From: Capitulum mitella
Taxonomy: Eukaryota; Arthropoda; Thecostraca; Pollicipedomorpha; Pollicipedidae
Assembly (NCBI GenBank): GCA_030062745.1
Contig: CP099839.1
Coordinates: 5,001-69,000, forward strand
Reading direction: 5' to 3'
DNA length: 64,000 nt
The notes under the pieces are model-generated. The model was not told the origin of the DNA, made no database searches, and saw only the letters and a program-made list of their open reading frames with translations. Shown here one piece after another: positions 1,959 to 13,721 of this stretch (the stretch's first letter is position 1; each line of letters starts with the position of its first letter). Made by a program: the position numbers and the translations under genes.

Positions 1959-2559
1959 CAAAATGCTCGTATTTCCTTAAGTATTTGCTCAAATATCAAT
2001 TGCTTTATATCAATCGATTCAGCTTAAAGTGCACTATGTGTTGCAACCTAGTAAATTGTTTTTGCACCTCTGCGAACTTAGTATTTTAGGTACAAACTTT
2101 TAAGTGTACTTAATTGGATAAGTCAGTACCTATTCAACGTAGAATACTTTGCTATAGCTCAAAAGATGCGCCAGAAGATGCCACGCACTTTTCCAATGCA
2201 CATTGTGTCGCTCCGATGCGTACTTTGGCTGTCAATTGCAAAAAACCCAAGTGCCAAATCCTTAACATTACGTAATGCTAAGCCAATGGGAAAAAAGGGG
2301 TCCACAAAGAACATTGTAACTTTTTAACTAACACAGCTATTGACATGCAATTTTCGGCATTCAAAAGCCAATTAACACAGCTATACACGGTGTGCCATCC
2401 AAGAGCGTATCTGGTTAAGTTACAGAGTAATCAAAGTTTGTCCAAACATTGTGTCAGTTGTGTCAAGGTTGACACACCAAGAATGCATTTGACACACATA
2501 TTGTCAATGTCGGGATTATAGGCAGTGAATGTGATAATGAGAATCTGAAATCAAATTAA

Positions 2560-4250
2560 AAGTATAAAAGAAAATTTTTTAAGAAATTTTGAGTCAAAGT
2601 TTTTCAAAATTTTGACCCCCCAAATTTTCGGTATGGGCATCCAAAAACTAGACTCGGATAGCAAATTAAATGGACTTTCTAATGGTGTACTTGCTTGGGT
2701 CCTAGGTGTAAGAAAAAGTGGCGTAATTGGCGGTCAAAGTTGGAAATTCGTACAGAGTGCCGCTCGACTCAATCCCGAAAATTTCCAAGTCCGTAATGCT
2801 AAGGCAATGGGGAAAAGTGCCTCCACTTAAAACCTTCTGCCTCCTGAACCGTGATAGCTAGCGACCTGCAGCTTTCGCCGTTCGATAGCCAAGATCAAGG
2901 GCTATAATTTATTCCCCACAAACTTTCTCGTATCTCTTAAAAGCACGGAGATGTAGAGGGTTGAAGACAATCAACTTTAGAAATTTCTTTTAGCATTAGC
3001 TAATGTTATGACAACGGGAAAAACAAGGCGTACAAAAAGCTTTCTAACTTTCTAAGTATGACAGCTATCAAAAAGCGGTTGACGGCATTCCATAGCCAAT
3101 TAATGCAGCTTCATACGCTAGATCTTTCAAAATTTTAACTTTCGAACTTACGGAGTGGCAAAAGTTCGTCCCAACATTGTATCAATTCGGTCAACGTTGA
3201 CACACTAAGAATAAATTTGACACACATCTTGCCAATTACAAACTTGTAAGCAATTTATGTGGCAATAAGAATCTGAAAAAAAAATGGGAGAAAAACTTAA
3301 TTTTTTTGAAAAATTTTGACTCCAATTTTTCCAAATTTTGACCCCCGAAATTTTGCCTATGGGCATCCAAAACCCAGATTCTGATAGCAAATTAAATGGG
3401 CTTTCTAACGATGTACCTGGTTTTGTCCTACCTTTTTGGAAAAGAGGTCAAATTTGCAGTCAAAGTTGAAAAATACCACATAGTCCCGTTCGACGGACAT
3501 TGAAAATTTTCTAAGTCCGTAATGTTAAGGCAATGGGGAAAAGTGCCTCCACTTAAAACCTTCTGCCTTTTGAACCGTGATAGCTAGCGACCTGCAGCTT
3601 TCGCCGTTCGATAGCCAAGATCAAGGGCTATAATTTATTCCCCACAAACTTTCTCGTATCTCTTAAAAGCACGGAGATGTAGAGGGTTGAAGACAATCAA
3701 CTTTAGAAATTTCTTTTAGCATTAGCTAATGTTATGACAACGGGAAAAACAAGGCGTACAAAAAGCTTTCTAACTTTCTAAGTATGACAGCTATCAAAAA
3801 GCGGTTGACGGCATTCCATAGCCAATTAATGCAGCTTTATACCCTAGATCTTTTAAAATTTTAACTTTCGAACTTACGGAGTGGCAAAAGTTCGTCCGAA
3901 CATTGTATCAATTCGGTCAACGTTGACACACTAAGAATCAATTTGACACACATCTTGCCAATTACAAAGTTGTAGGCAATTCATGTGCCAATAAGATTCT
4001 GAAAAAAAAATTGGGTAAAAAACTATATTTTTTTTTAAAATTTTGACTTTATTTTTTTTAAATTTTGACCCCCCAAATTTTGGCTATGGGCATCCAAAAA
4101 CCAGATTCTGATAGCAAATTAAATGGGCTTTCTAATGGTGTACTTGCTTTTGTTCTAGGTGTAAGAAAAAGTGGCGTAATTGGCGGTCAAAGTTGGAAAT
4201 TCGTACAGAGTGCCGCTCGACCCAATCCCGAAAATTTTCTAAGTCCGTAA
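2560..4250 (+). repeat. ~727-bp satellite, array 1 (about 2.3 monomers)
   Basis: Long monomers repeat in tandem: the landmark ccgtaatg occurs at 2,791, 3,517 and 4,245 (spacings 726 and 728). The monomer includes the stretch ccgtgatagctagcgacctg and a weak ~60-codon open frame that is also repeated (2,612-2,830 and 4,065-4,250). That frame has no recognisable family and is disrupted in other copies, so I do not treat it as a gene. A second array of the same monomer lies at 10,919-13,061. Confidence 0.85.
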
Positions 4251-4875
4251 TGTTAAAGCAACGGGGGAAACTACCTACACTTAAGAGCTCTTAGCTCCTA
4301 AGCTAAACAAGCTATTGCAACGCAATTTGCACTAATAGATAGCCACGATTCAGGGCTACAATTTACCTTACATCAACTTTCTTCTAACTTACCAACATAC
4401 TGAGTGAGACGAGTTTGAATGTAAGAAAAAAAATCCACCTTAAATCGCTGCATAATGTTAAGCCTATGGACAAAATAGGGTGTATAAAAGCGTCTTTTTC
4501 TCTTTAACGATAACAGATAGAGACACGCAGTAAAAACCGAAGAAAAGCCAATGTCCGCACCTATATACTGTGAACTTTACAGTGAGCTATCTCACTAACT
4601 CACAATAGTGAGAGAGTTTAACCAAACATGTTAAAGCATACGTCTCTTTGAGTCCTTTTTCAAACGCGCTTTCGCACACTAGTTTTACAGCGTCTTATTA
4701 AGCATACATTGTCATGTACGAGGATGAAAGAAATTTTTGAAAATTTTTCAAAAATTTTTTTTTGGGGTGGGTCAAAGTCCGACTAAGTCTGTGATTACAG
4801 TTTTTTAAACAGAGTTTTATTTTGCCGTGTGCGGACGGACAATTGCCTCAGAATTTGTGTGGTGTATTGCTTTTT
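4251..4875 (+). repeat. Satellite right flank, copy 1
   Basis: This non-tandem segment follows the last monomer and is closely matched at 13,062-13,690 after the second array (same order, same strand, with shared landmarks such as cttaagagctcttagctcc and gtgcggacggacaattgcc). The arrays were therefore copied or inserted together with this flank. No gene is visible. Confidence 0.75.
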
Positions 4876-6340
4876 GCAATCATTGGAGCAAAAGTATTTC
4901 TTATATTTTTGTCAATGTGCGGAATGCCATTAAGTGAACGTTTACGGATCCAAGAAACGACAGTCACTAAACTATGCACGGGATCACAAAACTGGCCTGA
5001 CTTTCGAACTCCCCGTGTCATTTTACGTCTAAAACAATACCTTAAACATTTCCCGACAATTTTCCAATCTCTTCACTATGGGGCATCCGACCCCCGAAAA
5101 TTTCCATCTTTGACCCCGCTTTTCACCCTTTTGCGTTGAATTTAGAGGGCAACATGGCATGAGAAAGTTGTTCAGAATGCTTGATTACCCCTAAATCCGT
5201 CCTCAAAACGACACTTTTCGGAAAAAAATTTCCGGGGTCCAAAAACCGGTCAAGGGGGTAGGCCAGGGATTTTAGGCCATTTTGGACATTTTAAACCGAG
5301 GACGTTTTAGACGTAAAATGGCATGCCAAACAACTTTGCAATGTATTTGTGTCACGAAAAATGAGAAACAAAAAAGTTATGGTCAAATGTTGGACTTAAA
5401 AATTTTTGGGGGGCACCAAATTTTGTAAACCCTATTTTTGACGGTACCATCGAATAGAGCGCAAAAAGATGTACTTATTAGTGTTAACTGCATCTCTCTA
5501 GCTATCGTACTTTTGCAGTTATGGGCGGACAAAAAACAGGGGGTCGGCCCTAAAATCTATCAGACAGACATGGCCCCACTTAAACATTGCGCCCCTTCGA
5601 ACGAGTGCCTCGATTTGAACGAAACAAAAACGAAACGATAGAGAACTCAACGGGCTATCGTTTTGTCCACAACAGTTGTTTTGTGGTATTAATTTCACCC
5701 CTCTAAAAGCACATGGAAATGGAGCATGGGAAAAATGTGGCAATAACAATCTGAAAGCAAATTGGCAAGAACGACAGGCTTCTTCAAAAAATTTTGAGTC
5801 AAAATTTTACAAATTTTTGAGACCTTAAATTTTTGACAGGGGCGCTGAAAAACCAGATTCTAATTATAAATTCAACGGGCCTTCCAATGGTGTACTTTGT
5901 TTTGTCCTAGCTTTACTGCAAAATGGTGCAATTGGCGGTCAAAGTTGGAGAACACCATACAGTGCCCATAGGGTGACCGGCCACCTGGCGGCGGGAGATC
6001 TTTTGTCAGTTTCAACCGACGAAAACAACTCTGGCTCAGGGTTCTCCGAGCGTCTGAAAGGAGTAACTCTACTTTTATCTCGCTCAATAGATGTCATGAA
6101 CCAAATTGGCGAAATTTTGTGATGTTTTTCCTTACTTTAGGCACCTCATAGTCTTCCTAAATGATGCAACTTCTAGGAAGAAAATGGATAGAGCATCACT
6201 TGAGTTGACCGTGACATTTTCATGCTAATCAGTTTCATTGTTCTTGCATGATTCCGAATTCTTGGAATGGACTAGACAACACAACATCGTGAATATGATT
6301 TAAGGCCTTCCGCCGTCGCTCAATCGCCATTCAGCCAGGC
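4876..6340. other. AT-rich spacer without a gene
   Basis: This is AT-rich sequence with short open frames. Parts resemble the satellite consensus in degenerate form (for example around 5,740-5,960). No exon, RNA gene or transposase motif is recognisable. Confidence 0.5.
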
Positions 6341-6365
6341 AACTGGTAAAAATGACAGTGTTCCC

Positions 6366-6710
6366 GCTTCCGGGCTCTACCGCACTATCGCACAGTACGG
6401 GTGCTGTTGTACTGAGGTACTGGTTTACGGTGCGTGCCCGGAAGAACGGCGTAATGTTGTCTCATGCCTGCTTCCTAAACCTCCTTCTGGGCTTTACCGC
6501 TGTATTGCACAATACGGGTGCTCTGGTACTGAGGTACTGGTTTACGGTGCGTGCCCGGGAGGAACGTGTATCCTTCCCTGTCCCTAAACCCCCTTCCGGG
6601 CTCTACCGGGCCCGGTTGGAAAGGGTCTCCTACCCCCTTCCGGGCCCCACCGCGCTATCGCACAGTATGGGTGCTCTGGCACTGAGGTACTGGTTTACGG
6701 TGCTTGCCCG
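6366..6710 (+). repeat. Three degenerate tandem copies, ~115-155 bp
   Basis: A module starting cttccgggctctaccgc and ending ggtttacggtgcgtgcccgg occurs three times (near 6,366, 6,480 and 6,636), with different lengths between copies. It marks the shift from AT-rich satellite to the GC-rich island holding the recombinase-like gene. A frame is open through it, but the protein is low-complexity and unrecognised. Confidence 0.7.
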
Positions 6711-7284
6711 GTCGGAGAGTATATCCCTCCCTGCCTTCTGCCTTCTTCTGCCTTTCCTTTCGGGCTCTTAACCCTTGCCCCTTGACTCTCTCTCTTTTCT
6801 ATAAACTAACAAAGCCGGTGGAAACCTAACGGTGTAAATCCCCCTGCTTGGGGCCATTGCGGCCAGGGCAGGAAGACCCTTGGGCTAACGCCTGGGTCGC
6901 GGGATCAACGAAACCGGTGTTTCCTTTTCAAGGGCCACCAGTGCCCGCAATCCGCTAACACTACACGCACACACACACTGGAATACGCTGACAAATGGAG
7001 TTTACACGTCGCAGTATGTTGTGGTGGTTCTATACCGCGGTATGTTGTCAAATCTGCAATGGCGGATGAAACTCAATGCCGTGGTAATGATTATCTCGTC
7101 CCAGACTGGAGAGAGGGTAGCTAACTGAAAAAACCCCCAGAGGTTTTTCTCGAGCGACCAACCGTTCGTGAAATAGAGGGGGGCCGGTCAACTGCCGACC
7201 CCCCCCCCCGGTTGCACATGTTCGAAACGGACCGATGGTCGTGCGCGGGTTATCTCACAGCTCACTGTGTCATCACAGCTTACG
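6711..7284. other. Upstream region of the recombinase-like gene
   Basis: GC content rises through this stretch. It contains a C-run at about 7,199-7,210. Promoter and 5' UTR of the following gene are expected here, but I see no convincing TATA box or initiator and no coding exon. Confidence 0.35.
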
Positions 7285-8265
7285 ATGGAGAACACCAGCA
7301 GCGAAAGCAGCGGGCCCCTTTGGGACGACTCGGACGAAGACGAGGATTACCGGGCGCCGCCACGCTGGGAAATCCTTGGCGAATCCGATGATTCTTACGA
7401 GGAGGGCCTGGTCGAAGAGCCTCCACACAAGAGACGGCGCCTTCCACCAGCCACAGAAATGACGGAGCAGGAACGGCGAGACGCGGCCGAGGCCGGCCCG
7501 TCGTGGCGGCCGGCGCCTGCGCCTGAACCTGACGCACCGCCATCTCGTGGAGCATCGGCAGCGCCGTCTACAGCGGGGGGCGACTCACCAACTCAACTGC
7601 CGGAGATGTGGACGCCGCCGCCGGGATGGACAGCGGCGCCGGCCGATCGGGTCTGGTGCCGATGCGGCACGATGGTGGAGCGCCGACGCCACGCCCGGCA
7701 TGCAAAACAGTTTTGCAGGTCGGAGAAGAATGATATGAACCACCCCCGAGCCATACTGGACAACCTTCGATCATTTGTTGCGCCTCACGCGCAAGAAGAG
7801 CTGAGATGCTCGTGCGGCCTGGTGCTGACAAGGACATCGAAAAAAGCGCTCCAGCAGGTACTGAGCAGCCACATAAACAGGCATGGAAAACACCGCGGCC
7901 TGGATGTCGCCGGCCGCGCGGTCGCCGTAAGGAGAGTGCTGAACCTAGCACACCGCACGGTCGCCATCACGCACGCAGCGGCGGTAGCCACCGGCCTTCC
8001 GCTCCACGTGGCGGGAATCGCCCGGGAAGGCGAGGAGCCGGACGCCCCTCGCCTGCCGGCCACAAGCAACTTGGCGGCGGACCGGCACTGGACTTTCAAA
8101 TATTCTGCGTACTGCGCAGATTTCACGCCGGAAGAGGCCCTCCCCGACAGCGGGACGAGGAGCCGGCGCACATACCGCTCCGTCCTCGCAAAACTGCTGG
8201 CGGAGTCGGAGATCCACGTCCCCGACTGGCGCTACGTCTTGCTGGACACGACGATGCTCAGACGG
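7285..8265 (+). CDS. Recombinase-like gene, exon 1
   Basis: Encodes residues 1-327: the acidic N-terminus, a Pro-rich linker and both zinc-finger-like motifs. It ends at ...agacgg|gttagc in phase 0. Confidence 0.7.
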
Positions 8266-10437
8266 GTTAGCGTTCATTACATGTAGTCTTTTCAATGGTA
8301 ACCATTCATAAATGATCGTGATGTTGAAAGCCAAACTTGTCAAAAGCGAAATAATCAATAAGGTGAATAACTCAGTCATCCCAAATCCAGGAAAAAGGCA
8401 TGACATTATCAAAATATATGTCTAACACTGAACACAATGAAACGTCCAAACGCACTCCAAGATTACACGACCACATGTCTGCAATGACAATGGAACTTTG
8501 TCCGTAGGTACGGGACGTCCTCCGGCAGACGCTCGAGGAGCAGCCGCCTACGGGCCTCATTATGGTTGCGGCCATAAGGGCGTTTATGGCGAGCGCGCAG
8601 GCCAGCGCCGCCCTGATCGACGACGGCGTGATCTGGGGACACCACTGCCTGAACTTGTCCCAGATCGCCAGAACAGAAAAGTTCAGAGCCGCCCAAGGTG
8701 CGTTTTATTCACAATCATGGCACGCATCGTCCACGTGTGACACGTCCTTATTGAAAATACGCTAAATTCCGAGTTCGACAGTCATAAGCTCAATACTAAG
8801 TTCCACAGCGAAATTTCAAACAGGCATGTTCTGCGTATTTGTTGCGGTTCAAAAAGTCACGATATAATAATCACGACTTCATGAGCACGGCACACAAAAC
8901 CATACATTACGAATATCTTGCGGTTTCCAGCCATCGCGAAATACAAGGCCGGGCAGGCCACCAAGAGAGAGGCCACCAGGACTCTTCTGACCACGGAGGA
9001 CCGCAAGCGGCTAAGAGAAGCGGCCCTCAGGTGGCATCGGGATGTCATCGCCGCCCCGCTGCCCACCACCGACGAGGACAAGAGGGCTCTTGCCAAAAAA
9101 TACCAGCAAGTCCTCTACATTTGCCTGTCCCTCTTCGCCGGCCAGAGGACGGGCGTGTTCACCGAACTGACGCTGGCTAAATACAACAGCGCTCGGGTCA
9201 GTGCTTTTTCGCATAATCACAACGCCAACTGATGGTTGACAGGTGACACGGTGCAATCGTGCAACAGCACTTCCTGTACAACACCGCTGACTGTGGCTGT
9301 CTTGTGTCCACAGTTCTCAGTTGCGACCGGAACTCATACGATCTCTCGGCTCGGTGGCAAAACATTGAAGTCAAGCGGCGCCTCCACGCTGGTGGTGCTG
9401 CCGGAGGAGTGGCGCGCCCTGACTTTCTTTGTGGAGCGGCTGAGGCAGTTCCTTCTGGGCAAGAAGGGTAAGGATTTCATATCTGTGATAATAAGCACGT
9501 TCCAGCAGTTACAAGGACATTACGCGACCGTTTCCCACACTGAAGGAGGTTACACTTTGGCATCGGTGTGCAAATATTCGATCACCATTACAGCATTTTC
9601 AATCAAGTATCCAATTTGTCCCCAGATGACACGCTGCTCTTCCCAACATTGAGGATATACGGCAACCTGGTCCACCCGGACGTCTTCCCGGCGGACATCC
9701 CATACGAGAAGGCCGTCCGGGGGAACGTTTCCAGGCGTTACCACACGGTAACAACCTACCACCTGCAGGAGAGCGGAGGCCTCCAGGGGGCGACATCGGC
9801 GGAACTCGCAGAGTACCGCCGCCACCGCGAGGACATCGCCCGCGGCGTCCGCCGACGCTCAGAGCGGGACGCTAGAGCGCAGCTCGCGTTCCTGCGCTCG
9901 GCGGGCGTCGTTGGCGACGCCCCCATCCTGCAGCCGGAGCCTTTGCCGCCGCACTCGCCGTCAGCGGCCAGCGACAGCGGCAACGTGGAGCCGCCGCCGG
10001 CCGCAGCCGAGCAGCCGACCCTCACCGCAGCCGAGGAGCCGGCACCGGCCGCAGCGGACGTCCCAGGAGCCGGCCAGCCGGCACCGGCCGCAGCGGCCCT
10101 GCCCGCAGCCGAGGAGCCGGCACCTGCCGCAGCCGGCCGGCCACCACCGGCCGCCGCGGGCACGTCCACCATGCCGACCGTGGAGGCCGAGTCGGGAATA
10201 CGCATTGAAAGCGACCTGCTGCCATTCTACTTCGTCCGCCTCCAGCAGAACACCAGCCGACGGCAGGGCGTGTCCTACGGCGTACGGTGGACGCCGGCAG
10301 AACTGGCGACGGTCGACCTGGCAGTGTCGACCATGCTTCCTGCAACACGGAGGGCCGTCACCGAGTTCCTGAACGCCAGGAGCTGGAACACAAAGAGACA
10401 CTCCGTCATGGCATTTGTACTGAAACTTAAACAATGA
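7285..10437 (+). CDS. Tyrosine-recombinase-like (Crypton-like) five-exon gene
   Basis: Coding exons 7285-8265, 8508-8697, 8931-9196, 9314-9467 and 9626-10437 join through GT-AG introns of 117-242 bp to 801 codons including the stop. The protein starts with an acidic Ser/Asp/Glu-rich segment, then two zinc-finger-like motifs (C125, C127, H136, H139, C144 and C175, C177, H196, H200). Residues ~400-540 look like the first half of a tyrosine-recombinase core: Arg463 in the motif GQRTGVFTELTL (box I), Lys495 in GGKTLKSSGAS (the hairpin Lys-Thr), then an LLFPT strand. The later HxxR and catalytic Tyr region is not recognisable. Residues ~630-705 are Pro/Ala-rich repeats. The start ATG at 7285 is the first in frame. 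It could be a Crypton-type transposon gene or a domesticated copy. Family assignment is inference from motif layout, while the gene structure is well supported. Confidence 0.72.
8508..8697 (+). CDS. Recombinase-like gene, exon 2
   Basis: The acceptor is tccgtag|gtacgg and the donor is caag|gtgcgt. Encodes residues 328 to ~390 in phase 0, ending with one extra base. Helical sequence with HHCLNLSQIARTEKF. Confidence 0.7.
8931..9196 (+). CDS. Recombinase-like gene, exon 3 (box I Arg)
   Basis: The acceptor is ggtttccag|ccatcg and the donor is gctcgg|gtcagt. It carries the helix and the GQRTGVFTELTL motif, which matches the R-containing box I of tyrosine recombinases. Confidence 0.72.
9314..9467 (+). 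CDS. Recombinase-like gene, exon 4 (hairpin Lys)
   Basis: The acceptor is tgtccacag|ttctca (an in-frame alternative cag is 6 bp later) and the donor is aagaagg|gtaagg. Encodes the beta-hairpin GGKTLKSSGAS followed by a helix ending in a run of Lys. Confidence 0.7.
9626..10437 (+). CDS. Recombinase-like gene, exon 5 (Pro/Ala-rich tail)
   Basis: The acceptor is ttgtccccag|atgaca. It begins DDTLLFPT, continues through an Arg-rich helix, a Pro/Ala-rich repeat region with recurring EEPAPAAA, and a conserved-looking C-terminal block, and ends at a TGA (10,435-10,437). Confidence 0.7.
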
Positions 10438-10620
10438 ACAGGAGAGCGACAGAGACGCGTGCTGGTGGCGAAAGAGACGCGTGCTGTTGGCGACAGAGAC
10501 GCGTGGTGGCGGGCACATAGTGTAGTGAAAACGCGCTGTGGACGATCAGAACCATGTAGTTTGTAGATAGGTAGGACCCTCCCGACGGGCACCACCTTTA
10601 CGTGGTGGGAGGGATTGCGC

Positions 10621-10672
10621 GCTCCATAATAGCCTTATGGCTATTATAATAGCCTGATGACTATTATGGAGC
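10621..10672. repeat. Perfect 12-bp inverted repeat (hairpin)
   Basis: The arms gctccataatag (10,621-10,632) and ctattatggagc (10,661-10,672) are exact reverse complements around a 28-bp loop that itself contains further ctattat/ataatag pairs. It lies 183 bp after the recombinase-like stop codon. It could be a 3' hairpin of the gene or the terminal structure of its mobile element. Confidence 0.8.
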
Positions 10673-10918
10673 CAGACTAAGAGTGCCCACTCCACTCCAC
10701 GTCCTCAGACGATGCCGACCGCCGGGCGCCGCCCCGGTGCGAACTTATGAGCGATGAAGCCGAGTGAACGGTCATGATGATGACGGTCATCATGATGACG
10801 GCCATCATGACGGTGATGATGATGACGGCGGCATAGAAATGGACGGGTCACACGCCTGGTGGCGGCTCGTCAGCGCCACCTACAGCTGGCGCCAGTACAG
10901 CAGCGCCATCTGCACAGC

Positions 10919-13061
10919 AAAATTTTCCAAGTCCGTAATGTTAAGGCAAGGGGGAAAAGTGCCTCCACTTAAGACCTTCTGCCTCCTGAACCGTGATAGC
11001 TAGCGACCTGTGACTTTCGCCGTTCGATAGCCAAGATCCAGGGCTATAATTTATTTCCCATAAACTTTCTCGTATCTCTCAAAAGCACGGAGATATCGAG
11101 GGTTGAAGACAATCAACTTTAGAAAGTTCTTTTAGCATTAGCTAATGCTATGACAACGGGAAAAACAAGGCGCACAAAAAGCTTTCTAACTTTCTAAGTA
11201 TGACAGCTATCGACAAGCAGTTAACGGCATGCCATAGCCAATTAACTCAGCTTTATACACTAGATCATTCAAAAACTTAACTTTTGAACTTACGGAGTGC
11301 CAAAAGTTCGTCCGAACATTGTGTCAATTCGGTCATTATTGACACACTAAGAATAAATTTGACACACATCTTGCCAACGACAAACTTGTAGGCAACTGAT
11401 GTGGCAATAATAATGTGAAAGGAAATTGGGCAAAAAAAAAAAAATTTTTTTAATAAGTTTTGACTCCAATTTTTTCAAAATTTTGACCTCCCAAATTTCC
11501 GGTATGGGCATCCAAAAACAAGTTCCTGTAGGAAATTAAATGGGCTTTCTAATGCTGTACTTGCTTTTGTCCTAGCTGTAAGGAAAAGTGGTGTAATTGG
11601 CGGTCAAAGTTCGAAATTCGTACAGAGTGCCGCTAGACTCAATCCCGAAAATTTTCTAAGTTCGTAATGTTAAGGCAACGGGGAAAACTACCTACACTTA
11701 ACACCTACTGCCTCCTGAACCGTGATAGCTAGCGACCTGCAGCTTTCGCCGTTCAATAGCCAAGATCCAGGGCTATAATTCATTCCCCACAAACTTTCTT
11801 CTATCCTTACAAAGTACGGAGGTATAGGGGGTTAAAGAAAATCAACTTGTAAAATTTCTCTTAGCATTAGCTAATGTTATGACAACGGGAAAAACAAGGT
11901 CTACAAAAATCTTTGTAACATTTTTGTTATGAAAGTTATTGAAAAACCGCAAGCAACGTTCGATAGCCAATTAAACAGGCGTTATTCAGTATACTACACA
12001 AGAACTTATTTGTTGAACTGACAGAGTGATTACAGTTCGCCTGAACATTGTGTCAGTTCAATCAACGTTGTCACCCTAAGAATAAATTTGACAAACATTT
12101 TGTCAATTATAAAGTAGTAGGCAATTTATGAAGCAATAACATTTTGGCAGAAAACTGAATGAAAAGTTTAAGTTTTTTTAAATTTTTAGTCAAACTTTTT
12201 TAAAATTTTGACCCCTTAAATTTTTGACGTAGTCGCCAAAAAACCTTATTGTAATAGAAAATTAATGGGCTTTCTAATGATGTCTTTACTTTTGTCCTAC
12301 CTCTTTGGCAAAGAGGTGAAATTTGCAGTGAAAGTTGAAAAATACTACACAGTCCCGTTCGACGGACTTTGAAAATTTTCCTAGTCCGTAATGTTAAGGC
12401 AATGGGGAAAAGTGCCTCCACTTAAGACCTTTTGCCTCCTGAACCGTAATAGCTATCGACCTGCAATTTTTACCGTTCGATAGCCAAGATCCAGGGCTAT
12501 AATTTATTTCCCACAAACTTTCTCGTATTGCTCAAAAGCACGGAGATATAGAAGGTTGAAGACAATCAACTTTAGACATTTCTTTTAGCATTAGCTAATG
12601 CTATGACAACGGGAAAAACAAGGCGTACAAAAAGCATTCTAACTTTCTAAGTATCACAGCTATCGACAAGCAATTAACGGCATGCCATAGCCAATTAACT
12701 CAGCTTTATACACGAGATCCTTTGAAAACTTAACTTTTGAACTTACGGAGTGACAAAAGTTCGTCCGAACATTGTGTCAATTCGGTCAACGTTGAAACAC
12801 CAAGAATCAATTTGACACACATCTTGCCAATTACAAACTTGTAGGCAATTGATGTGGCAATAATAATCGGAAAGGAAATTGGGCAAACATTTTTTTTTCA
12901 AAAATTTGGGCTTAAATTTTTTCAAAAATTTTTACCCCCTAAATTTTAAGTATGGGCATCCAAAAACCAGATTCTTATAGAAAATTAAATGGGCTTTCTA
13001 ATGGTGTACTTGCTTTTGTTCTAGGTGTCAGAAAAATGGCGTAATTGGCCGTCAAATAAGT
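10919..13061 (+). repeat. ~727-bp satellite, array 2 (about 3 monomers)
   Basis: The landmark ccgtaatg (or tcgtaatg) occurs at 10,933, 11,662, 12,386 and 13,062, with spacings 729, 724 and 676; the last monomer is shortened by a deletion. The sequence matches array 1 at 2,560-4,250 in the same orientation. The left edge is abrupt, joining non-satellite GC-rich sequence at about 10,918. Confidence 0.87.
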
Positions 13062-13690
13062 CCGTAATGTTGAAGCAACGGGGAAACTACCCACACTTAA
13101 GAGCTCTTAGCTCCCAAGCTAAACAAGCTATTGCAACGCTGTTTGCTCTAATAGATAGCCACGATTCAGGGCTACAATTTCCCTTACATCAACGTTCTTC
13201 TAACTCACCAACATACCGAGTGAGACGAGTTTGAATGTAAGAAAAAAAATCCACTTTAAATCGATGCATAATGTTAAGCCTATGGACAAAATAGTATATA
13301 TAGTGTATAAAAGCGTCTTTTTCTCTTTAACGATAACAGATAGAGACACGCGGTAAAAACCCAACGAAAGCCAATGTCTGCACCTATATACTGTGAACAC
13401 TACAGTGGGCCATCTCAGTAACTCACAATAATGAGAGAGTTTAACGAAACATGTTAAAGCATACGTCTCTTTTAGTCCTTTTTCAAACGCGCTTTCGCAC
13501 ACTAGTTTTACAGTGCCTTATTTAGCATACATTGTCATGTACGTAGATGAAAGAAATTTTTGAAAATTTTCCGACGAAATTTTTTTCGGGTGGGTGAAAG
13601 TCCGACTAAGTCTGTGGCTACAGTTTTTTGAACAGTTTTTTTTTTGCCGCGTGCGGACGGACAATTGCCTCAGCATTTGTGTTGTATATT
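13062..13690 (+). repeat. Satellite right flank, copy 2
   Basis: Closely similar to 4,251-4,875 with substitutions and small indels, including a duplicated tatata stretch near 13,292. No gene is visible. Confidence 0.75.
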
Positions 13691-13721
13691 GATTTTTGCA
13701 TCTTTTGCATTTTGCATGATA

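Follow-up and report, generated by a model that had tools for sequence, protein, structure and literature searches.

Results

Gene structure and N-terminal region

The window, a stretch of 64,000 nucleotides from Capitulum mitella contig CP099839.1, carries on its forward strand a gene whose five exons, joined across GT/AG introns, yield an open frame of 800 residues (Table 1). Ten of the GT/AG combinations tried near the exon borders keep the frame open, and the chosen one is favoured by related copies. The exon lengths of 190, 266 and 154 bases are repeated together with the splice junctions in the copies C6b (92% DNA identity) and C7a (85%), and the junctions also in C10b, in which the exons are 69% identical and exon 4 has 151 bases; the same splice sites are common to copies differing by up to ~30%. 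Exons 2, 3 and 4 are under purifying selection, with dN/dS values of 0.13-0.27 between the window copy and C6b and of 0.10-0.19 between the window copy and C7a; exon 1 gives 0.66, nearer to neutral, and 0.31 in the same two comparisons. The recurrence of the splice junctions in relatives and the low dN/dS indicate that the five exons are coding, beyond chance, as the initial annotation had modelled them; the two CxC...H stretches and the GQRTG, GGKT and LLFPT motifs that it had listed also lie at the positions claimed.

The two N-terminal motifs are zinc-finger-like and would bind zinc, with DNA as their presumed target. One His is missing from the first motif of C10b, and the second retains CxC and HxxxH in C7a, C10a, C10b and C11.

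Table 1. Features of the locus, in window coordinates.
Feature	Start	End	Strand	Remarks
Inserted element, probable extent	5968	10918	+	~727-bp tandem satellite on both flanks
TATAAA (6800-6805) and conserved 5' module	6800	6966	+	probable promoter/5' leader
Probable 3' part of a 5'-UTR intron	7200	7278	+	putative acceptor TGTGTCATCACAG, shared with C10b
Exon 1	7285	8265	+	residues 1-327; acidic/Pro N-terminus and two CxC...H motifs
Zinc-finger-like motif 1, CRCG...HxxH...C	7657	7716	+	residues 125-144; present in C7a, C10a, C11
Zinc-finger-like motif 2, CSCG...HINRH	7807	7884	+	residues 175-200
Intron 1	8266	8507	+	unusually conserved; 3/242 differences from C6b (exon 2: 25/190)
Exon 2	8508	8697	+	gene model and recurrence in relatives
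Intron 2	8698	8930	+	unusually conserved; 5/233 differences from C6b
Exon 3	8931	9196	+	holds box I; profile match to lambda-type integrases
Box I Arg codon (GQRTG)	9146	9148	+	Arg in 10/11 copies readable here; aligns with lambda R212
Intron 3	9197	9313	+	unusually conserved; 2/116 differences from C6b
Exon 4	9314	9467	+	holds beta-hairpin Lys
Beta-hairpin Lys codon (GGKT)	9359	9361	+	Lys in 9/10 copies, window copy included; placed by motif and order
Intron 4	9468	9625	+	5/158 differences from C6b
Exon 5	9626	10437	+	LLFPT strand, proposed second half of active site, Pro/Ala tail, conserved C-terminal segment
Proposed box II Arg (RRYHTV)	9736	9738	+	Arg in 10/12 copies; placed by spacing, not by profile
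Proposed box III His (EYRRH)	9823	9825	+	His in 11/12 copies; aligns with lambda H333
9-bp gap site of window copy	9844	9852	+	three residues fewer; relatives carry the proposed catalytic Tyr there (alignment)
Conserved 3' module, two hairpins	10570	10695	+	probable element 3' end; z -4.4 against 200 shuffles

Similarity to tyrosine recombinases

The proposal that the protein is tyrosine-recombinase-like is backed by the box I profile match, which sets Arg on Arg and was equalled by none of 100 column shuffles. Compared with 11 lambda/Xer-type integrases the profile of exons 3-4 scored 24.5, the best of 100 column shuffles reaching 19.7; the hhalign probability of the box I match is 11%, with an E of 0.0028 for one comparison. 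Whole-domain profile alignment placed His and Tyr on lambda H333 and Y342 in three of four settings, the fourth covering the first half only, and did not place box II. In shuffles of the exon-5 half, His and Tyr were matched at a spacing of nine in 7/200 and 5/200 cases, and were both matched at any spacing in 17/200 and 33/200. Taken alone this half falls short of significance: 26 of 100 shuffles are equally good, and its best local match sets YDVRR on box II. Tests based on few templates were weak: the number of shuffles as good as the full domain, out of 60, was 2 for lambda, 3 for a mixed set, 13 for XerD, 35 for Cre and 36 for Crypton-like templates; for the exon-5 half it was 34-52 in all five tests.

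Pfam, PHROGs and PDB, searched by single sequence and by profile, gave no significant match, and viral contigs, prokaryote genome contigs and phage records contained no relative (best phage match, E 0.9). The search against Phage_integrase and Crypton models that the initial annotation had recommended came back empty: neither PF12012 nor Phage_integrase was matched, and the 46 places listed in the same genome by the PF12012 search include no copy of this recombinase family. The profile also lacked similarity to three Crypton-like frames of that genome, and the Crypton lineage suggested earlier is not supported by these results.

The absence of library matches, the hhalign probability, the non-significance of the exon-5 half and the frequency of shuffles matching both His and Tyr would all agree with a chance likeness of motifs in a multi-exon zinc-finger gene or in some other transposon family; this is nevertheless unlikely, as the match at box I, which has the exact Arg register, scores above all of 100 shuffles, His and Tyr at a spacing of nine are matched in so few shuffles, and the key residues are conserved across copies. 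The comparison modestly supports the identity of the protein as a tyrosine recombinase.

Proposed active-site residues

The HxxR and Tyr boxes had been reported as impossible to find, which holds for the literal motifs in the window copy. The family indicates what once occupied this place: relatives carry the sequence EYRRHREDVARSVYDVRRR, where a conserved His is followed by a Tyr nine residues on. This spacing is that of lambda Int, XerD and, with Trp, Cre: His-x8-Tyr is found in XerD and in the Crypton-like frames of the same genome, and Trp-x8-Tyr in Cre. The family probably does possess the second half of the active site, and the claim that it is absent or replaced is probably wrong; as judged from the alignment, in which it is three residues short, the window copy is one that has lost the proposed Tyr through a 9-bp in-frame deletion. 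That Tyr is retained in 8 of 12 copies and, besides the window copy, is lost in three others; two copies on contig 16 have Asp. In the proposed box II the usual His three residues upstream of the Arg is missing.

True loss or replacement of the second half in this recombinase family, with YDVRR as a decayed box II, would accord with the best-scoring local match of the exon-5 half, in which YDVRR falls on HELRS, and with the failure to find the paired box II His. The hairpin Lys and the box II His are separated by 72-73 residues in XerD and lambda. The distance from the hairpin Lys is ~111 residues to YDVRR and ~70 to the RRYH site, and the window protein contains no His-x8-Tyr downstream of YDVRR; on these grounds we regard a true loss as very unlikely.

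Copy family and age of the window copy

The recommended count of genomic copies revealed a family of ~19 dispersed copies on many contigs, so the window gene is not a single gene. All 12 other copies examined in detail are broken by frameshifts, stops or truncations, and among the 13 examined the full open frame is found only in the window copy. Changes private to the window copy affect 6 of 749 intron sites (3/591 as an alternative count), and in exons N 28/1619 and S 25/550 (ratio 0.38) or, with C10a added, N 17/1074 and S 12/357 (ratio 0.47). The intact frame and splice sites had been taken as an argument against a dead relic; both are real, but the frame carries little weight, the copy being young as judged by its private intron changes (6/749).

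Domestication, by which a catalytically dead recombinase is kept as a host DNA-binding protein, like ZMYM2, QRICH1 and WOC in other animals, could be read from the sole full open frame, from the clean in-frame deletion that removed the Tyr and from the private N/S ratios. The private changes, however, include pre-insertion ones from the active lineage, and the short time after insertion given by the introns (6/749 or 3/591) renders an intact frame unsurprising. Moreover, the copy lies within the satellite, 12 kb away from a contig end, and the two contig 16 copies with Asp are likewise without Tyr. With a dispersed multicopy family of which the other examined members are broken, the domestication put forward in the initial annotation is very unlikely.

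Element structure and satellite setting

On the left side the satellite ends at GTGCC(G), an identical point in 4/4 copies compared; on the right it restarts at AAAATTTTC (10919), at the same satellite phase in 4/5 such copies compared, for which shared descent may account. No terminal repeats were noticed at the junctions, and the exact element ends are unproven. Divergence at 6800-6999 is 0-4% from C6b, C10a and C11 and 2-7% from C7a, and 7200-7284 diverges at intron level. The 5' module is related to a dispersed repeat (1,239 first-look candidates, 40 scored). The 3' module is recognisable in the nine copies compared, one of them at 56% exon identity; its first hairpin was unmatched within 5 mismatches in L021-L024 and L029-L036. 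Rfam returned nothing above cut-off in the window, with sub-threshold matches only in 5700-11000. TTAGG arrays proved unusable as a telomere marker, giving 2,436 overlapping 35-mer matches of which those listed lie inside contig 1.

Intron conservation

In comparisons between lineages, conservation of the introns exceeds that of four-fold synonymous sites by a factor of 3-13; duplicates of dead copies, compared with each other, show no such gap. At four-fold sites the most frequent change is C-G between the window copy and C10a (22/65) or C7a (41/106), and A-G between the window copy and C6b (12/45). Hidden coding was rejected as a cause, with stops in 12/12 frames of introns 1 and 2 and in 10/12 of introns 3 and 4, as was RNA structure, six intron pieces giving z values of -1.3 to +1.2. 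CpG decay was also rejected as the source of the fast exons, the difference remaining outside CpG in C6b, C7a and C10a, and cDNA-mediated exon replacement is not favoured, since conservation extends to the presumed leader exon and the 3' module.

Tentatively, and at somewhat less than even odds, the four introns, the leader and the 3' hairpins may be the most constrained parts of the transposon, the introns carrying required cis-acting signals. It would then be a recombinase transposon unable to lose or change its introns; such a constraint, if real, would contradict the usual view that mobile-element introns change at a neutral rate and would offer a direct test of the role of introns in a DNA transposon. 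According to this reading, introns in active lineages changed little as four-fold sites diverged by 10-50%; candidate signals are splicing control, or DNA or RNA sites for transposition. Judged by titles, the literature matches listed include no report of transposable-element introns more conserved than exons, and among the matches listed for Crypton and barnacle none is about transposons.

Discussion

We propose, with a probability of about 0.63, that the window gene is one copy, young but inactivated, of a tyrosine-recombinase DNA transposon and lies within a 727-bp satellite. The element, ~5 kb here, would consist of five coding exons between a leader and a 3' hairpin module, both of them conserved. 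Its catalytic domain, of putative recombinase fold, would employ the Arg of box I, the hairpin Lys, the Arg of a box II devoid of the usual His, the His of box III and a nucleophilic Tyr encoded in exon 5. A 3'-phosphotyrosine would form in an intact member when this Tyr attacks one strand at a short site, and excision and insertion would take place via strand exchange, as in lambda Int and Cryptons. The window copy, without Tyr, should bind DNA and not recombine, its frame being still undecayed. Mobility was not observed, and the copies could also have arisen by co-amplification with the satellite.

Little is known of recombinase transposons in animals. The profile libraries tried missed this family, so similar ones have possibly been overlooked. 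An inactivated copy can, moreover, be taken for a domesticated gene or for a lineage lacking part of the active site.

As a special case of the proposed transposon, the element could belong to the crustacean recombinase lineage of endogenous nimaviruses and related host YR-like proteins, which we consider possible although doubtful. Some of these nimavirus-associated and host recombinases are described as multi-exon, zinc-binding and inserted in telomere repeats or 28S rDNA (PMC10871703). The described features that our element would share are a putative zinc-binding region, some multi-exon genes, insertion that may be repeat-specific, location in repeated DNA, key residues partly found (five of seven located) and the lack of closeness to Cryptons or DIRS (PMC10871703); the host genome also contains TTAGG arrays. 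Against this, no viral feature was noticed near the gene, and the nimavirus-type recombinases are placed by that description in large viral elements with telomere-repeat or rDNA targets (PMC10871703), whereas here a ~5-kb element lies in a satellite, its putative target.

Like Cryptons (CryptonA and CryptonI), the element would be a DNA element with one YR, no terminal repeats having been noticed, and relics with lost catalytic residues are common among them (PMC3212892); unlike them, it does not match PF12012, and its protein has a C-terminal tail and a zinc-finger-like N-terminus. The Crypton-derived DUF3504 genes (WOC, ZMYM2-4, QRICH1, KCTD1) are likewise recombinase-like without the catalytic Tyr, some with zinc fingers; however, they are conserved host genes in which the second Arg is lost too (PMC3212892), whereas the present family is multicopy and decaying and includes copies with Tyr, Arg and His. 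With the lambda-type phage integrases (PF00589) the protein shares the box I GQRxG...E, the hairpin Lys and the aligned His-x8-Tyr, and it differs from them in being too distant for a Pfam match, in its longer loops, in the lack of the box II His and in its eukaryotic introns. In the features described for them, the element is closer to the multi-exon crustacean recombinases than to Cryptons.

The five-exon gene and its copies in the genome

The five segments of the initial annotation do join, through GT/AG introns, into an uninterrupted reading frame 800 residues long. Among the GT/AG combinations that were tried, ten leave the frame open, and the homologous copies favour the one adopted. Exons 2, 3 and 4 measure 190, 266 and 154 bases, with identical splice junctions, in the copies C6b (92% DNA identity) and C7a (85%), and 190, 266 and 151 bases in C10b (69% exon identity). 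The dN/dS of these three exons is 0.10-0.27 in the pairs window-C6b, window-C7a and C6b-C7a, that of exon 1 being 0.66, 0.31 and 0.35, respectively. The recurrent exon lengths and junctions, together with the low dN/dS of exons 2-4, establish that the gene model is genuine.

Coordinates of non-coding features in the window
Feature	Position	Remark
Introns 1-4 of the window copy	8266-8507, 8698-8930, 9197-9313, 9468-9625	3-13 times more conserved than neighbouring four-fold sites between lineages
Tandem satellite, ~727 bp	2262-5968 and 10919-13700	both sides of the gene; also around several other copies
Leader module, 160-base	6806-6966	akin to a dispersed repeat that has 1,239 first-look candidates in the genome
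First 3' hairpin	10577-10626	

The 477-Mb genome, in 16 contigs, carries at least about 19 copies of the family, only the best candidates having been scored in the searches; the tally covers the window and 18 fetched regions, one of which holds two copies, with the weak region L035 dropped and small fragments left out. The whole frame is found in 0 of the 12 other copies checked exon by exon, and 6 of the 19 lie less than 100 kb from a contig end, a zone that makes up some 0.7% of all sequence. The family is dispersed and decaying, as a transposon would be and a single host gene would not. A divergent copy, L033, has a leader-like motif that lies upstream, ~330 bases from where exon 2 matches, exon 1 being apparently absent. 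The truncated copies C11 and C4 (regions L022 and L023, contigs 11 and 4), which served as a neutral control, both end at window position 9064 and, given this identical end base, appear to have arisen by duplication of a single copy that was already truncated.

Changes private to the window copy, compared with C6b and C7a, amount to 28/1619 nonsynonymous, 25/550 synonymous and 6/749 in introns; with C10a added they are 17/1074, 12/357 and 3/591. The few intron changes indicate a young copy, in which an open 2.4-kb frame comes as no surprise, so that the intact frame is weak evidence against a dead relic. The ratio for the private changes (0.38-0.47) mixes those before and after insertion and cannot reveal selection on this copy. 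Domestication, the other earlier suggestion, is not supported, the copy being young and one of a dispersed, decaying family.

The proposed active site

The second half of the active site, previously reported as missing, is probably present in the relatives. The window copy reads EYRRHREDIARGVRRRSE and relatives, for instance, EYRRHREDVARSVYDVRRRSE, with a Tyr nine residues past a conserved His. Twelve copies have this stretch: eight of them (L019, L020, L024-L029) carry Tyr at the position, L030 has His, L031 and L032 have Asp, and the window copy has lost it through a 9-bp in-frame deletion relative to the others. The His-to-Tyr spacing equals that of lambda Int and XerD and of Crypton-like frames of the same genome, and in Cre a Trp and the Tyr are so spaced. 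The Arg of RRYHTV is kept in 10/12 copies and stands where spacing would place box II, its partner His being absent; profile alignment does not fix the position of this box. Given the His/Tyr pair, the candidate box II Arg and the deletion, the family probably keeps most of the active site, the copy in the window being a member that has been inactivated. The two copies with Asp (L031 4074-4319 and L032 3585-3893) are both near the start of contig 16.

Comparison with tyrosine recombinases

Pfam and PHROGs, searched with single family members, and the PDB, searched with sequence and profile, gave no match. hhalign was used to compare profiles of the family's own copies with integrases. The results are weak when templates are few: for the full domain, 2 (lambda Int), 3 (mixed set), 13 (XerD) and 35 (Cre) of 60 shuffles score as well, and 36/60 against three Crypton-like frames of the same genome; the figures are 2 to 29 for exons 2-4 alone and 34 to 52 for exon 5 alone. 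Against a larger profile (n=11: lambda, XerD and nine phage integrases resembling lambda Int), exons 3-4 score 24.5, reached by 0/100 column shuffles (maximum 19.7), with the box I GQRTG of the family aligned onto GQRVG of lambda; the hhalign probability is only 11%, with E 0.0028 for a single comparison. Taken by itself, the exon-5 half does not reach significance against this profile (26/100 shuffles as good), its best local match being box II and not His/Tyr. In 3/4 settings of the whole-domain alignment the family His and Tyr fall on lambda H333 and Y342; of 200 exon-5-half shuffles, 17 (global) and 33 (global MAC) likewise match both residues, and 7 and 5 do so with the spacing of nine retained. 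These comparisons support, without proving, the proposed tyrosine recombinase identity.

Slow introns and non-coding modules

Introns differ less than four-fold sites in 11/11 between-lineage pairs (four-fold/intron ratio 2.9-12.8, Fisher p <= 9e-5), which share branches and are not independent. Four-fold versus intron-core differences are 45/422 vs 13/677 for window-C6b, 55/231 vs 10/538 for window-C10a, 42/249 vs 10/537 for C6b-C10a, 106/413 vs 61/678 for window-C7a and 154/301 vs 86/558 for window-C10b; amino-acid-changing sites also differ more than introns in the first three pairs (C10a without its broken exon-5 end). No clear gap is seen between close relatives of dead copies (four-fold vs intron): C11-C4, 3/141 vs 10/439, p 1.0; C6b-C11, 6/205 vs 8/439, p 0.39; C6b-C4, 7/137 vs 8/439, p 0.06. 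Pairwise realignment agrees, and 6800-6999, 7200-7284 and 10600-10699 are also low in divergence. The simplest reading of these alignments is that non-coding parts may have been constrained while the elements were active. CpG context, considered as a cause, does not account for the gap.

The window, C6b, C10a and C7a share the point where the left satellite array ends. The right junction, AGC|AAAATTTTC, does not change phase among the window, C7b, C10b and L028; in C8b it is altered, and the flanks of C15b and C6c are different. These junctions suggest insertion at one satellite site, or descent shared with the satellite. The 3' module, which contains two hairpins (z -4.4), is recognisable in the nine copies compared, even where exon identity is only 56%; a search allowing 5 mismatches detected no first hairpin in L021-L024 or L029-L036, although several of these are truncated. 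That hairpin is also seen at three places (L057, L058, L059) at what seems to be the 5' edge of another dispersed repeat, which also has GGAGCCAGACGAAGAGTGCC. Forty of the leader-repeat candidates were scored; family copies are among these, the others being 79-89% identical. A TTAGG 35-mer gave 2,436 overlapping matches genome-wide, those listed lying at many internal places of contig 1; TTAGG arrays make an arthropod host likely.

Relation to known systems

Animal Cryptons have a DUF3504-related YR and lack terminal repeats (PMC3212892). The family does not match that domain, and the Crypton lineage first proposed is not supported. PMC10871703 describes crustacean recombinases associated with endogenous nimaviruses as zinc-binding and repeat-specific, some of them multi-exon, and distinct from Cryptons and DIRS; five of their seven key residues were located, and further YR-like proteins are mentioned in decapods. 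Compared by description alone, the family is closer in these stated features to the nimavirus-associated recombinases than to Cryptons.
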